From Rhodobacterales bacterium (GTDB lineage: Bacteria; Pseudomonadota; Alphaproteobacteria; Rhodobacterales; Rhodobacteraceae), in contig PDRY01000016.1 in assembly GCA_002748265.1 (NCBI GenBank), positions 124,001 through 188,000 of the forward strand: a stretch of DNA of 64,000 bases. Reading direction: 5' to 3'. Positions 23,232-27,777 of this stretch are shown here, piece by piece. The notes below the pieces were generated by a model. That model was not told where the DNA came from. It did not search any database and saw only the letters and a program-made list of their open reading frames with translations. The translations under genes and the position numbers were made by a program. Within the stretch, counting starts at the first letter, position 1; each line of letters begins with the position of its first letter.

Positions 23232-23801
23232 TCAGAGCTTCGACGCCCCGCGAGCAAGCGCCGCGACCCCGGTGCGTGCGATCTCTTGCAGCCCAAGAGG
23301 GCGCATCAGCTCGGCAAAGGCATCGACCTTGTCAGGGGTTCCGGTCATCTCGAAGATGAAGCTTTCATGGGTGCTGTCCACGACGCGGGCGCGGAAGATA
23401 TCGGCCAGCCGCAGGGCTTCGACCCGCGCCTCGCCGCCGCCCGCGACCTTGAACAGCGCCAGTTCCCGCTCCACGGACTTGGCCTCTTCGGTGAGGTCAT
23501 GCACGTCGCGCACGGAGACGATCCGGCCAAGCTGCGCCTTGATCTGTGCAATGATCTGCGGCGTGCCCGAGGTGACAATAGTGATCCGCGACAGGTGACC
23601 TTCGTGGTCTACCTCGGCCACGGTCAGGCTCTCGATGTTGTAGCCGCGCCCGGAAAAGAGCCCGATCACGCGGGCCAGTACGCCCGGCTCGTTCTCGACG
23701 ATGACGGCGAGGGTATGACGCTCCACCACGTCCGAAAAGGTCGGGCGCAGGTTATAGGCGGAGTGGCTCGTGGAGCCTTTCTTGATTTTCAGTGCGGACA
23801 T
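23232..23801 (-). CDS. ilvN: Acetolactate synthase small (regulatory) subunit
   Basis: 189 residues; binds valine and sensitises the catalytic subunit. ACT domain near residues 29-100: HTLAVIVENEPGVLARVIGLFSGRGYNIESLTVAEVDHEGHLSRITIV. The C-terminal half is the ALS_ss_C domain (VERELALFKVAGGGEARVEALRLADIFRARVVD). Its length and two-domain build match IlvH/IlvN of alphaproteobacteria. It is separated from ilvB by a LysE-family gene, all on the same strand under one attenuator. Confidence 0.96.
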   Translation of the reverse strand: MSALKIKKGSTSHSAYNLRPTFSDVVERHTLAVIVENEPGVLARVIGLFSGRGYNIESLTVAEVDHEGHLSRITIVTSGTPQIIAQIKAQLGRIVSVRDVHDLTEEAKSVERELALFKVAGGGEARVEALRLADIFRARVVDSTHESFIFEMTGTPDKVDAFAELMRPLGLQEIARTGVAALARGASKL

Positions 23802-23822: not shown

Positions 23823-24461
23823 TTATTTGCTGCCGGTGGCAGTGGTCGTGAGGATCGCGCCTCCAAAGAATACCAAAAGCGCGCCAAAGACCTGCTCAAC
23901 ACTGCGCTTGACCGATAGTAGCCGGTCCCGCACGCGTGGATCCGCGAAAAAGAGTGCGACAATGGCGAACCAGAACACATGGGCCAGCGCGATGAAGACA
24001 CCGTAGCAGAGCTGTGCAATAAGCGGTGTCTGCGGCGTGACCACTGTGGTGAATACGCTCAACACGAAAACGGCCGTTTTGGGATTGGTCGCGTTTGTCG
24101 TTGCGCCCCAGCGGAATCCTTCGAGCGGGGTCATCGCCGTGCCGGTAGCTGCGGCCATGTCCGAGCTTGCGCTGCGGATGGTTTTGATCCCTAGATAAAT
24201 AAGATACGCGCCGCCAACCAACTTGGCGATGGCAAAAGCAGTGGTTGAGGCCGCCAGCAGAGCACCGACTCCGAGGATCGCTGCTGCCACATGCACGTTC
24301 AGACCGATGCCAACGCCAAGAGCCGTCGCCAGCCCAGCCTTGCGGCCACCAATCAGCGCATTGCGGCTGACGATCGCGAAATCGGGACCGGGGCTCATCA
24401 CTGCCAGAAGGGTGATCGTGGCCACCGCCAAAAATTCGGGCGTTAGAAATATGGATGTCAT
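23823..24461 (-). CDS. LysE/RhtB family amino acid exporter
   Basis: 212 residues, six predicted helices. LysE signature near the N-terminus: TLLAVMSPGPDFAIVSRNALIGGRKAGLATALGVGIGLNVHV, and FRWGATTNATNPKTAVFVLSVF near 115-135. The start overlaps the ilvB stop by four bases, and the stop is 21 bases before ilvN, so the gene is embedded in the ilvB-ilvN operon. This placement suggests export of a branched-chain amino acid or an intermediate, an inference from context only. Base composition is slightly less GC-rich than the neighbours. Confidence 0.9.
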   Translation of the reverse strand: MTSIFLTPEFLAVATITLLAVMSPGPDFAIVSRNALIGGRKAGLATALGVGIGLNVHVAAAILGVGALLAASTTAFAIAKLVGGAYLIYLGIKTIRSASSDMAAATGTAMTPLEGFRWGATTNATNPKTAVFVLSVFTTVVTPQTPLIAQLCYGVFIALAHVFWFAIVALFFADPRVRDRLLSVKRSVEQVFGALLVFFGGAILTTTATGSK

Positions 24462-26209
24462 ACCAGTGCCCCTCCGGCGCCCTTAATGGCGTTTGTAGCC
24501 TTAGCATCCCCCAGCAGCATCTTGTTGTGGGGCTCACCCGACGGGATCATCGGGAAGCAGTTTTCATGTTTCTCGACAAGGCAGTCGAACAGCACCGGAC
24601 CGTCGTGCTTGATCATCTCCATGATCGCATCGTCCAGATCGGCGGGGTCCGACACCAAAATGCCCTTTGCCCCGAAGGCTTCGGCCAGCTTCACGAAATC
24701 GGGCAGCGATTCCGACCAGCTGTGCGAATAACGCTCTCCGTGTAGAAGCTGCTGCCACTGGCGCACCATCCCGAGCCGTTCATTGTTCAGGATGAACTGC
24801 TTGACCGGCAGGCCATACTGCACGGCGGTGCCCATTTCCTGCATGTTCATCAGCCAGGAGGCTTCGCCCGCGACGTTGATCACCAGGCTGTCGGGATGGG
24901 CAAGTTGCACGCCAATGGAGGCCGGGTGGCCATAGCCCATGGTGCCCAGCCCCCCAGACGTCATCCAGCGGTTTGGCTCTTCGAAGCCCATATACTGGGC
25001 GGCCCACATCTGGTGCTGGCCGACTTCGGTGGTGACGTAGCGGTCCATGTCCTTGGTAAGTGCCTCAAGCCGCTGCATCGCATATTGCGGTTTGATCGTA
25101 TTGCCTTCTTGCGTGAAGGCGAGACAGTTGACCTTGCGCCATTCCTCGATCTGGGCCTGCCACTTGGCGATGCCCGCGCGGTTTACCTTGCGGCCCCGCG
25201 CCTTCCACAGGTTCAGCACGTCCTCAAGCACATGGGCCACGTCCCCGACGATCGGCACATCCGCGCGGATCACCTTGTTGATCGAGGACGGGTCGATGTC
25301 GATATGGGCCTTCTTGGATTTCGGGCTGAACGCATCCACACGGCCGGTGATCCGGTCGTCGAACCGCGCACCGATCGCGATCATCAGATCACAGCCATGC
25401 ATCGCCAGGTTGGCCTCATAAAGGCCGTGCATCCCCAACATGCCCAGCCAGTTCTTGCCCGATGCGGGGTAGGCGCCGAGGCCCATCAGCGTCGATGTGA
25501 TCGGGATGCCCGTCGCCTCAACCAGCTCGCGCAGGAGCTGGCTGGCCGCCGGGCCAGAGTTGATCACGCCGCCGCCGGTATAGAACACGGGGCGCTCGGC
25601 GGTTTCGATCATCTCGACCAGCGTGGCGATGGTCTCCGGATCGCCCTTCACGGGCGGGTTGTAGTGCGACGTCATCGCCTTGGGCGGGGTGTACTCTTCG
25701 GAGGCAAACTGCACATCCTTCGGGATGTCGATCAGCACCGGGCCGGGGCGACCGCTTGACGCGACGTGGAACGCCTCGTGGATCGTGCCGGACAGCTTGC
25801 CGGTGTCTTTCACCAGCCAGTTATGCTTCGTGCAGGGGCGGGTGATGCCCACGGTGTCGGCCTCCTGGAAGGCGTCCGAGCCGATCATGAAGGTTGGCAC
25901 CTGGCCGGAAAACACAACCAGAGGAATCGAATCGAGCAGCGCATCCGTCAGCCCGGTCACGGCGTTCGTCGCGCCGGGGCCGGAGGTCACGAGCGCCACA
26001 CCGACCTTGCCGGTGGAGCGGGCATAGCCTTCGGCGGCATGAATCGCGGCCTGTTCATGGCGCACAAGGATGTGGCGGATTTCGTTTTGCTGGAAAATCT
26101 CGTCGTAAATCGGAAGGACAGCACCGCCGGGATAGCCGAATACCACTTCGACGCCCTGATCCTTCAGGGCCTGAACCACCATCTTCGCGCCGGTCATCTG
26201 ACGTGCCAT
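24458..26209 (-). CDS. ilvB: Acetolactate synthase large (catalytic) subunit
   Basis: 583 residues, thiamine-diphosphate enzyme making acetolactate or acetohydroxybutyrate for valine, leucine and isoleucine. The cofactor-activating glutamate is in FGYPGGAVLPIYDE / HEQAAIHAAEGYARSTGK near 48, the FAD region near 250-300, and the ThDP/Mg motif is NVAGEASWLMNMQEMGTAVQYGLPVKQFILNN near 445-475 (GEAS for the common GDGS, typical of this alphaproteobacterial form). First structural gene after the leader peptide and attenuator. Also called ilvI. Confidence 0.97.
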   Translation of the reverse strand: MARQMTGAKMVVQALKDQGVEVVFGYPGGAVLPIYDEIFQQNEIRHILVRHEQAAIHAAEGYARSTGKVGVALVTSGPGATNAVTGLTDALLDSIPLVVFSGQVPTFMIGSDAFQEADTVGITRPCTKHNWLVKDTGKLSGTIHEAFHVASSGRPGPVLIDIPKDVQFASEEYTPPKAMTSHYNPPVKGDPETIATLVEMIETAERPVFYTGGGVINSGPAASQLLRELVEATGIPITSTLMGLGAYPASGKNWLGMLGMHGLYEANLAMHGCDLMIAIGARFDDRITGRVDAFSPKSKKAHIDIDPSSINKVIRADVPIVGDVAHVLEDVLNLWKARGRKVNRAGIAKWQAQIEEWRKVNCLAFTQEGNTIKPQYAMQRLEALTKDMDRYVTTEVGQHQMWAAQYMGFEEPNRWMTSGGLGTMGYGHPASIGVQLAHPDSLVINVAGEASWLMNMQEMGTAVQYGLPVKQFILNNERLGMVRQWQQLLHGERYSHSWSESLPDFVKLAEAFGAKGILVSDPADLDDAIMEMIKHDGPVLFDCLVEKHENCFPMIPSGEPHNKMLLGDAKATNAIKGAGGALV

Positions 26210-26246
26210 TTCTTTGTCCTTCGCCTACGTCACTCGCTTTGGTCAC

Positions 26247-26276
26247 AAAAAAGCCCCCGGGGGGTAATCCGGGGGC
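26247..26276 (-). terminator. ilv attenuator terminator
   Basis: Perfect 8-bp stem GCCCCCGG/CCGGGGGC with loop ATTACCCC followed by six T, on the minus strand, 38 bases before the ilvB start and 24 bases after the leader-peptide stop. It stands upstream of the structural genes, so read-through must be regulated. Three bases of its 5' arm are also used in the alternative antiterminator helix. Confidence 0.85.
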
Positions 26277-26317
26277 GCATGGAGGTTGGTCTGGCGACCG
26301 TTACCGGGCCATGCGCC
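26274..26317 (-). promoter_or_regulatory. ilv antiterminator helix
   Basis: GGCGCATGG, inside the last leader codons (26309-26317), is the exact complement of CCATGCGCC (26274-26282) at the foot of the terminator. Pairing would remove the lower terminator stem and allow transcription into ilvB. A ribosome finishing the leader would cover the first arm; one stalled at the Leu-Val-Val-Ile-Val codons would leave it largely free. A small hairpin GGTC-GCCA-GACC lies between the arms. Confidence 0.65.
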
Positions 26318-26348
26318 TTTTTCCTACAATTACGACAAGATCCGTCAT
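26301..26348 (-). CDS. ilv operon leader peptide
   Basis: 15-codon ORF, MTDLVVIVGKRRMAR then TAA, with GGAG about six bases before the ATG. Five consecutive codons (CTT GTC GTA ATT GTA) encode Leu-Val-Val-Ile-Val, precisely the end products of the pathway downstream. It lies between a candidate promoter and a terminator on the ilvB strand. This is the signature of ribosome-mediated attenuation. Too short for routine gene calling. Confidence 0.82.
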   Translation of the reverse strand: MTDLVVIVGKRRMAR

Positions 26349-26373
26349 CGGGGGCTCCATTGTGTGCGGGAAA

Positions 26374-26401
26374 CTTATGCATGTGCAGAAAGGAGGGTCA
26401 A
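26374..26401 (-). promoter_or_regulatory. Candidate sigma-70 promoter of the ilv operon
   Basis: On the minus strand, TTGACC and CATAAG are separated by 16 bases. Transcription would start some 15-20 bases before the leader ATG, giving the short 5' end expected for an attenuated operon. Consensus match is moderate (5 of 6 and 4 of 6). Confidence 0.45.
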
Positions 26402-26691
26402 CCCGGGTCATGGAGAAAATGTCGCGTTTTGGGTGTTTTGCGTAACTATCGTAAAACAAGGGGTGTCGCGGGTGCGAAAAATGTTTGCGTCAGTTGTTTT
26501 CGTTGTTCTGCAAGGGGCTGCTTGGCGTTGAAAGGCCGCCCATGCACAAAAATTGGTCAAAAAATCTGACAATATGTCGCATCAAGGTGCAAAACGCGGT
26601 TCCCACGGCTTCAAAGGAGCGCTAGTCTTTCTGCACTTTAACGATCCGCCCTTGTGGGAGCAGGGGCCAAAACAACCTTGGGAGGTCATAA
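26402..26691. other. Intergenic region between ilv and TRAP operons
   Basis: No ORF supported. The DNA is noticeably more A/T-rich than the surroundings. It must hold the plus-strand promoter of the TRAP transporter operon, whose ribosome-binding site GGGAGG is at its right end. No strong inverted repeat or riboswitch-like fold was recognised. Confidence 0.5.
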
Positions 26692-27777
26692 ATGGATCGT
26701 CGCTCTTTTCTGAAAAATGCCGCGCTCGGCTCCACCGCCGCCGCTGCCACCACCGCTCTGGCCGCTCCGGCCTATGCGCAAGGCAAGCGGACCCTGACCC
26801 TGGTCACCACCTGGGGCCGCGGTCTGGCCGGTGTGCATGACAGCGCGCAGCGCAACGCCGACATGATCACCGCCATGACCGATGGCCAGATCACCGTGGA
26901 TCTGAAAGCGGCTGGTGAACTGGTTGGCGCGTTCGAGGTGTTCGACGCCGTGACCTCCGGTCAGGCTGACATGTATCACGGTGCCGATTACTACTTCGTG
27001 GGTCAGCACCCGGGCTACGCCTATTTCACCTCCGTGCCCTTCGGCATGACCGCGCAGGAGCTGACCAACTGGTACTACCAGAACGGCGGCATGGAGCTGC
27101 ATGACGAGCTGGGCCAGATCTTTGGCCTTAAATCCTTCCTCGGCGGCAACACCGGCGCTCAGGCTGGCGGCTGGTACAAGAAGGAAATCACCGGCCCCGA
27201 AGACTTCCAAGGTCTGAAGTTCCGTATGCCGGGTCTGGGCGGTGAAGCCCTGGGCAAGATGGGCGCCTCCGTGCAGAACCTGCCGGGCTCCGAAGTGTAT
27301 CAGGCGCTTGCCTCCGGTGCGATCGATGGCACCGAGTGGATCGGCCCCTGGGCCGACGAGAAGGCCGGTTTCCAGGAAATCACCAAGACTTACTACACCG
27401 CCGGCTTCCACGAGCCGGGTGCCGGTCTGTCCATGGCGATGAACCGCGAAGTGTTCGAAAGCCTGACCCCGGCCCAGCAGAAGATCTTCGAGGTCGCTTG
27501 CATGGAAGGCCACCAGTGGAACCTGAGCCAGTTCCTGGCCGAAAACGGTGCCGCTCTCGAGCGCCTGCAGGCTGGCGGCGTGAAGGTCATGGAATTCCCG
27601 GACAGCGTTTGGGAAGCCATGGGGGCTGCCTCGAAAGAGACGCTCGACCAGTACATGGACGATGAGCTCTATGCGCGGATCCGCAACAGCTACAACGACT
27701 CCATGCGCAAATCCTCCGCGTGGCTGCAGAAGTCCGAAGGCGTGTATCGCGCCCAACGTGACCGCCTGATGGGCTAA
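26692..27777 (+). CDS. TRAP transporter substrate-binding protein (TakP-like, Tat-exported)
   Basis: 361-residue periplasmic receptor of the DctP family. N-terminus MDRRSFLKNAALGS carries a twin-arginine motif, with cleavage likely after APAYA. Binding-site regions: LKFRMPGLGGEALGKMGASVQNLPGSEVYQALASGAIDGTEWIGPWADEKAGF near 175-230, which includes the ligand-contacting arginine and the EW pair seen in TakP-type, 2-oxoacid-binding proteins. Signal motif and this block resemble Rhodobacter TakP. Heads a three-gene operon. The ligand could be a keto acid or related monocarboxylate; not proven. Confidence 0.93.
   Translation: MDRRSFLKNAALGSTAAAATTALAAPAYAQGKRTLTLVTTWGRGLAGVHDSAQRNADMITAMTDGQITVDLKAAGELVGAFEVFDAVTSGQADMYHGADYYFVGQHPGYAYFTSVPFGMTAQELTNWYYQNGGMELHDELGQIFGLKSFLGGNTGAQAGGWYKKEITGPEDFQGLKFRMPGLGGEALGKMGASVQNLPGSEVYQALASGAIDGTEWIGPWADEKAGFQEITKTYYTAGFHEPGAGLSMAMNREVFESLTPAQQKIFEVACMEGHQWNLSQFLAENGAALERLQAGGVKVMEFPDSVWEAMGAASKETLDQYMDDELYARIRNSYNDSMRKSSAWLQKSEGVYRAQRDRLMG

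Follow-up and report, generated by a model that had tools for sequence, protein, structure and literature searches.

A ribosome-mediated transcription attenuator very probably controls the ilvB-lysE-ilvN genes in the window, that is, the whole 64,000-nt stretch of DNA analysed here, to judge from its sequence, the conservation of its parts and folding predictions. It occupies 26247-26401 on the ilvB strand, between ilvB, whose start is at 26209, and a divergent ORF with its start at 26692. Ribosome-mediated attenuation had already been proposed in a preliminary description of this DNA. It is still the best explanation, and the elements then named are conserved, but the account of the switch had to be corrected, as the helix between the segments that we call arm2 and arm3 appears insufficient alone. 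The features of the locus are as follows.

26396-26401, minus strand: -35-like TTGACC, its exact place confirmed
26374-26379, minus strand: -10-like CATAAG, after a 16-nt spacer from the -35
26349-26358, minus strand: Shine-Dalgarno segment GGAGCCCCCG, predicted to pair with the 3' arm of the terminator when arm2:arm3 forms
26355-26358, minus strand: GGAG, Shine-Dalgarno-like, 6 nt before the leader ATG
26301-26348, minus strand: leader ORF MTDLVVIVGKRRMAR, ATG to TAA, 15 codons
26325-26339, minus strand: control codons CTT GTC GTA ATT GTA (Leu Val Val Ile Val)
26309-26317, minus strand: arm2 GGCGCATGG, within the last leader codons
26298-26307, minus strand: stop-codon hairpin CCG-GUAA-CGG, 3 bp, with the leader stop codon in its loop
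26274-26282, minus strand: arm3 CCATGCGCC, the complement of arm2, its final 3 nt common to the terminator
26253-26276, minus strand: terminator hairpin GCCCCCGG-8-CCGGGGGC, 8-bp stem
26247-26252, minus strand: terminator U-tract, six T
24458-26209, minus strand: ilvB, acetolactate synthase large subunit (NF006581, 1117.6 bits against a cut-off of 974)
23823-24461, minus strand: gene for a LysE/RhtB-type amino-acid exporter, overlapping the end of ilvB (PF01810, 5.1e-36; TIGR00949, 146.8 bits, below the cut-off of 183.95)
23232-23801, minus strand: ilvN, acetolactate synthase small subunit (NF008864, 224.6 bits against a cut-off of 119)

The promoter-like TTGACC-16-CATAAG, the 15-codon leader, its five consecutive Leu/Val/Ile codons and the terminator with its 8-bp stem and six T had all been described before and are present as stated, though a strict sigma-70 scan lists no promoter in the leader region. 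An in-frame ATG farther upstream (26358-26360) would give a longer leader, MEPPMTDLVVIVGKRRMAR (MEPPMTD...). As GGAG sits between the two ATGs, the shorter start is likelier. A terminator scan of 26150-26700 yields four sites, the sole one on the minus strand being this terminator, and shuffled sequences average 0.8. When the 400-nt upstream region was shuffled 2000 times with its dinucleotides preserved, 9 of the shuffles held an ORF of 8-40 aa with at least five consecutive I/L/V codons. The fold of RNA 26210-26385 has a z of -2.9, equal stability being reached by 3 of 200 shuffles.

As for the operon, the preliminary description was right about the three genes and their order, but lysE is not typical of ilvB-ilvN operons. 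In tblastn searches of the best 80 of at least 597 ilvB-encoding stretches, this LysE lies between ilvB and ilvN in none of the 78 relatives with ilvN in view. The spacing between ilvB and ilvN is 0.3-2.7 kb in 21 of these 78, for example in L005, L028 and L072, and this LysE is absent there.

Conservation is the decisive evidence for a leader over chance. Relatives were taken as the same best 80 of at least 597 stretches, most of them from Rhodobacteraceae or roseobacters. One of them, L071, was dropped because its contig ends there and leaves no upstream sequence, so that our alignment A1 holds 80 rows, namely the window and 79 relatives. TTGAC occurs within 75 nt upstream of the leader start in all 80 rows, with NNTANN 14-19 nt past it in 77. 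The leader has 15 codons in 70 rows, and the arm motifs GCGCATGG and CCATGCGC are kept in 76 and 77 rows, respectively. Conservation of the Leu/Val/Ile codon run, on which the preliminary description had proposed to judge the case, is borne out: a run of at least three I/L/V codons is found in 79 of the 80 rows and one of at least five in 68. The exception, L061, has a broken run only (LIDVV). In another relative, L049 (L049:3834-3962), an in-frame TAG separates the control codons from arm2, a natural variant that should disturb attenuation.

The element extends across the window's family. A covariance model, R2, matched 165 of 198 genus representatives of that family (E <=0.001). In one genome (G408), a second high-scoring element precedes another ilvB copy, and G468 and G508 also gave second R2 matches. 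We then followed the 20 listed of the 33 family genomes without an R2 match, together with 8 hand-chosen weakly matched ones; as L235 was unusable, 27 remained. A branched-chain leader followed by a terminator is present in 20 of these 27 R2-missed or weakly matched genomes, our diverged relatives, a generous count because the leader peptides at several loci were named by eye, and no leader-terminator pair was found in the other 7. Weak R2 matches (L098-L106, E <=0.01) were set aside as apparently unrelated; they look mostly like terminators.

The control codons are distinctive in their choice and in their position. Across the 80 rows of A1, CTA makes up 51% of Leu codons in the leader runs versus 1.5% in the ilvB genes, GTA 52% of Val codons versus 4.8%, and ATT 46% of Ile codons versus 14%. 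The runs of the ilvB leaders are mixed, with 97 L, 214 V and 81 I. According to excerpts of PMC1183508, a paper that also lists trp, ilv and leu attenuator operons, rare control codons were an early proposal for the leu attenuator, an explanation there termed an oversimplification. In 66 of the 80 rows, the I/L/V run ends exactly 8 codons before the stop, a register that would suit a stalled ribosome whose edge lies just short of arm2.

Compensatory change, which the preliminary description had named as a further test of the helices, tells almost nothing in close relatives, since there is so little variation in their arms. The arm helix is nearly invariant, with 98.6% of cells paired in the 80 rows of A1, and a single change on both sides, from G-C to A-U in L047, was found over its 9 pairs and 80 rows. 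In the terminator stem, 96.7% of cells are paired; pairing survives changes on both sides in 20 cells. The loop-end pair accounts for 17 of these and is unpaired in 21 other cells. Two of the three pairs of the stop-codon hairpin change on both sides, in one row each. As for the permutation test described next, applied to the close ilvB set, the stop hairpin is without covariation (4172 of 5000 permutations as high) and the arm helix gives 55 of 5000.

The 20 diverged relatives are where the test succeeds. Their arms differ, as in L213 (GCGCAGTCGC/GCGACTGCGC) and L231 (GCGCATCG/CGATGCGC). An energy test with swapped partners was weak: of the 20, the native arm helix beat all swapped ones in 1, and the native stop hairpin did so in 7; a permutation test on helix length was chosen after this result. 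By that test both helices covary. The arm helix averages 6.45 bp in native combination versus 5.31 bp when permuted, with none of 5000 permutations as high, and the stop hairpin 3.70 bp versus 2.67 bp, with 1 of 5000 as high. A stop-codon stem of at least 3 bp is present in 15 of the 20, and in 11 of those 15 the stop codon lies wholly in the loop. We infer that the stop-codon hairpin is possibly a pause hairpin, where RNA polymerase waits for the ribosome. In the set of efflux-linked elements described below, covariation is absent from the arm helix (3734 of 5000; z -0.6) and slight in the stop hairpin (477 of 5000).

Arm3 was also set against the familiar consensus letters of pause sites. 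A G stands at -10 or -11 from CATGCG in 61 of 79 ilvB elements, L061 being left out, and in 11 of 14 efflux elements, which makes arm3 as a pause site a lead and nothing firmer. The ATGCGC of arm3 hardly changes. Of 17 efflux-linked elements 14 keep it, and in several of the efflux-linked elements arm2 mismatches it. This invariance might reflect a pause signal or a role in trans.

How the terminator might be switched is less simple than the preliminary description suggested. Its helix, said to be mutually exclusive with the terminator, is conserved as arm2:arm3, but exclusion holds only in part, because arm3 has just 3 nt of the terminator stem, which is all that arm2:arm3 overlaps with the window's terminator; it is predicted only when the 5' segment is included. 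With the RNA 5' of a stalled ribosome omitted, the base of the terminator is paired with a probability of 0.83 in the window and 0.80 on average in the 80 rows of A1. At equilibrium, arm2:arm3 alone would thus hardly displace the terminator, and both can be expected largely to coexist. When the upstream RNA is kept in the fold and the ribosome footprint is barred from pairing, the predicted pairing of the terminator base in the window is 0.00 for the stalled ribosome versus 0.99 for one at the stop codon, and the corresponding means for the 80 rows are 0.36 and 0.90. Terminator pairing is lower in the stalled state in 78 of the 80 rows, and lower by more than 0.2 in 66.

The window's value of 0.00 arises because 26349-26358 pairs, in the predicted fold, with the 3' arm of the terminator. 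Shuffling the 5' region while keeping the Shine-Dalgarno core raises the stalled value for the 80 rows from 0.36 to 0.53. Most of the difference between the two ribosome states would be due to pairing of the Shine-Dalgarno region with the 3' arm of the terminator, an interaction that the models support for the window and to some degree for the 80 rows. This signal may be partly a by-product, since the rows are related and a Shine-Dalgarno sequence can pair with a U-tract. No stalled/stop difference is predicted for the 20 diverged relatives (0.80 versus 0.78), and Shine-Dalgarno:terminator pairing is absent there; in 4 of them the longest arm helix reaches into the terminator, and in 10 it stops 1-5 nt short of the terminator. 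For this reason, we propose the two-layer antiterminator for the window's group only.

The proposed mechanism would run as follows. With ample charged Leu-, Val- and Ile-tRNA, the ribosome would reach the leader stop codon and cover arm2 and the stop hairpin; arm3 would then be left unpaired, the terminator would form and transcription would stop about 40 nt before ilvB. When a branched-chain aminoacyl-tRNA is scarce, the ribosome would stall on CTT-GTC-GTA-ATT-GTA, its front edge not quite reaching arm2. Arm2:arm3 could then form and take 3 nt at the base of the terminator, after which the Shine-Dalgarno segment would pair with the terminator 3' arm, so that the terminator would be blocked and RNA polymerase would read on into ilvB.

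Other readings of the same locus have to be weighed against attenuation of ilvB. The leader might be a general sensor of ribosome speed, reporting any slowing of translation, antibiotics included. That the same module precedes Bcr/CflA-type efflux genes, with shorter runs, speaks for such a sensor, but the leaders before ilvB keep mixed Leu/Val/Ile runs that match the products of this operon, and we regard this reading as improbable. It is extremely unlikely that the hairpin is an ordinary constitutive terminator, merely lowering basal transcription, beside an incidental ORF. In its favour, the terminator of the diverged relatives is predicted, at equilibrium, to form in both ribosome states; against it, the I/L/V run, the rare codons, their spacing and the helices are all conserved, and the terminator sits between a conserved promoter-like site and ilvB.

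A main role in trans, in which the terminated leader RNA or its peptide would regulate other genes and cis attenuation would be secondary, deserves mention for the precedents. The S. meliloti trp leader RNA rnTrpL and its peptide peTrpL act in trans, according to PMC7298713 and PMC10117765, and Rfam lists the related family Atu_C8 as an sRNA. In addition, the arms are nearly fixed in close relatives despite their freedom to covary, and the efflux-linked arm3 keeps its ATGCGC (14 of 17) while several arm2 mismatch. Set against these points, the control codons, their rarity and fixed spacing and the site before ilvB all fit control in cis, and the arms change together in the diverged ilvB relatives. 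We therefore hold a main role in trans to be very unlikely, and attenuation of the ilvB operon in cis stays our preferred reading.

The preliminary description placed the attenuator in a class known for ilv operons of proteobacteria, which is correct but too broad, as there are published cases in alphaproteobacteria. An alphaproteobacterial ilvB leader peptide is listed as previously described in PMC1273637 (2005) and an S. meliloti ilvIH cis-regulatory element in PMC2573895, both citing Vitreschak 2004, and PMC4117421 describes attenuation of Caulobacter ilvBN, with Ile and Val codons in the leader, citing Tarleton 1994. Since alphaproteobacterial ilvB/ilvIH attenuators are already published, the window's attenuator belongs to a known class. 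The published attenuators share with it a leader of branched-chain codons and a controlled terminator before an acetolactate synthase operon. The likeness to the systems of Vitreschak 2004 and Tarleton 1994 is drawn through the citing papers, and the stop-codon hairpin, the putative Shine-Dalgarno:terminator pairing and lysE come from the present sequence. The window offers a well-documented Rhodobacterales member of the published class, whose rare control codons and covarying stop-codon hairpin are testable.

The enterobacterial trp, ilv and leu attenuators resemble the window's in their control codons and in the stalled ribosome and choice between a terminator and an alternative helix that are proposed for it. 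trpL likewise has a hairpin, its first, whose loop contains the stop codon. Whereas the second arm of trpL follows the stop codon, arm2 of the window lies inside coding codons before it. Unlike the enterobacterial type, the window's predicted ribosome-free fold pairs arm2 with arm3 rather than with a third segment. Rfam RF02502 (Atu_C8), a Rhizobiales sRNA family, is also alike: its arms are nearly those of the window, and it too has a stop-codon hairpin and a terminator. The window scores 23.0 bits (E = 0.036) against it, below the gathering cut-off of 50 bits; the only gathering-level Rfam match in the window is a tRNA elsewhere.

This likeness leads to what seems the apparently new part of the study, a link with drug efflux that lies outside the window. 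We consider the chances about even that one conserved alphaproteobacterial module, of which the window holds a copy, has come to serve two kinds of genes: ilvB in Rhodobacterales, and efflux genes of the Bcr/CflA type in other alphaproteobacterial families as well as on certain plasmids of roseobacters and Rhizobium. Pump synthesis would then depend on how fast the ribosome moves along a Val-rich leader, a speed governed either by the supply of amino acids or by drugs that block translation, and Atu_C8 would be this pump attenuator. Among the matches listed in open-licence literature, which was our scope as distinct from subscription journals, none describes an attenuator before Bcr/CflA genes.

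None of the strong R2 matches beyond the window's family lies before ilvB, and in 12 of 13 non-family genomes examined, the exception being G189, ilvB has no short upstream ORF with at least four consecutive I/L/V codons. We built a terminator-free model, R3, from 48 of 79 ilvB references, L061 being left off the reference list. It matched 16 of 385 genomes of the class (E <=0.001), 5 times before ilvB, all in the window's family, and 11 times before Bcr/CflA-type transporters. At this threshold, the module is seen before just two kinds of genes, for amino-acid synthesis and for drug efflux. Each of the 11 efflux matches stands directly before a gene whose protein is at least 51% identical to the transporter of L092 (L092 included), and all four transporter proteins tested pass the Bcr/CflA efflux model TIGR00710. 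Run on 56 sources, R3 found the window's element and 16 of 17 efflux elements, and the best E among the remaining 38 was 0.9. The element accompanies 12 of 17 class loci whose transporters are at least 50% identical to that of L092 (query included) and none of the 13 less similar loci (<50%). In the genome that the window comes from, a transporter gene of this type (L136, 41% identity) lacks the element.

The leaders of the efflux-linked elements (L087-L097 and L107, and on plasmids L140, L141, L142, L144 and L145) keep the same register, 10 of 15 having a run whose end lies 8 codons ahead of the stop. Their runs are shorter, with at least five I/L/V codons in 2 of 15 and at least three in 11 of 15, and Val accounts for 39 of 48 run codons. 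Four of the 15 (L093, L094, L096 and L097) have no run of three I/L/V.

The sole locus examined above the Atu_C8 cut-off in 190 genomes of the class, L107 (L107:1501-1620), is one of these efflux elements and belongs to the 11 efflux matches of R3, with a Val-run leader, MRMMQVSVVVGRRMGKAA, before the efflux gene. It differs from the window in standing before a Bcr/CflA-type efflux gene and in having an arm3 without overlap with the terminator. The Atu_C8 'sRNA' family thus looks like an attenuator leader in its efflux version, which suggests that it is worth checking for re-annotation as such. Induction of the pump by slowed translation becomes directly testable.

As for plasmids, ten regions were hand-picked from 40 listed of 3428 records. 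The element is present in five of the ten, from Leisingera caerulea, Phaeobacter piscinae, Roseobacter denitrificans (pTB1), Rhizobium sp. Kim5 and R. lusitanum. In the Leisingera caerulea region (L140), a nearby gene is annotated as a chloramphenicol phosphotransferase.
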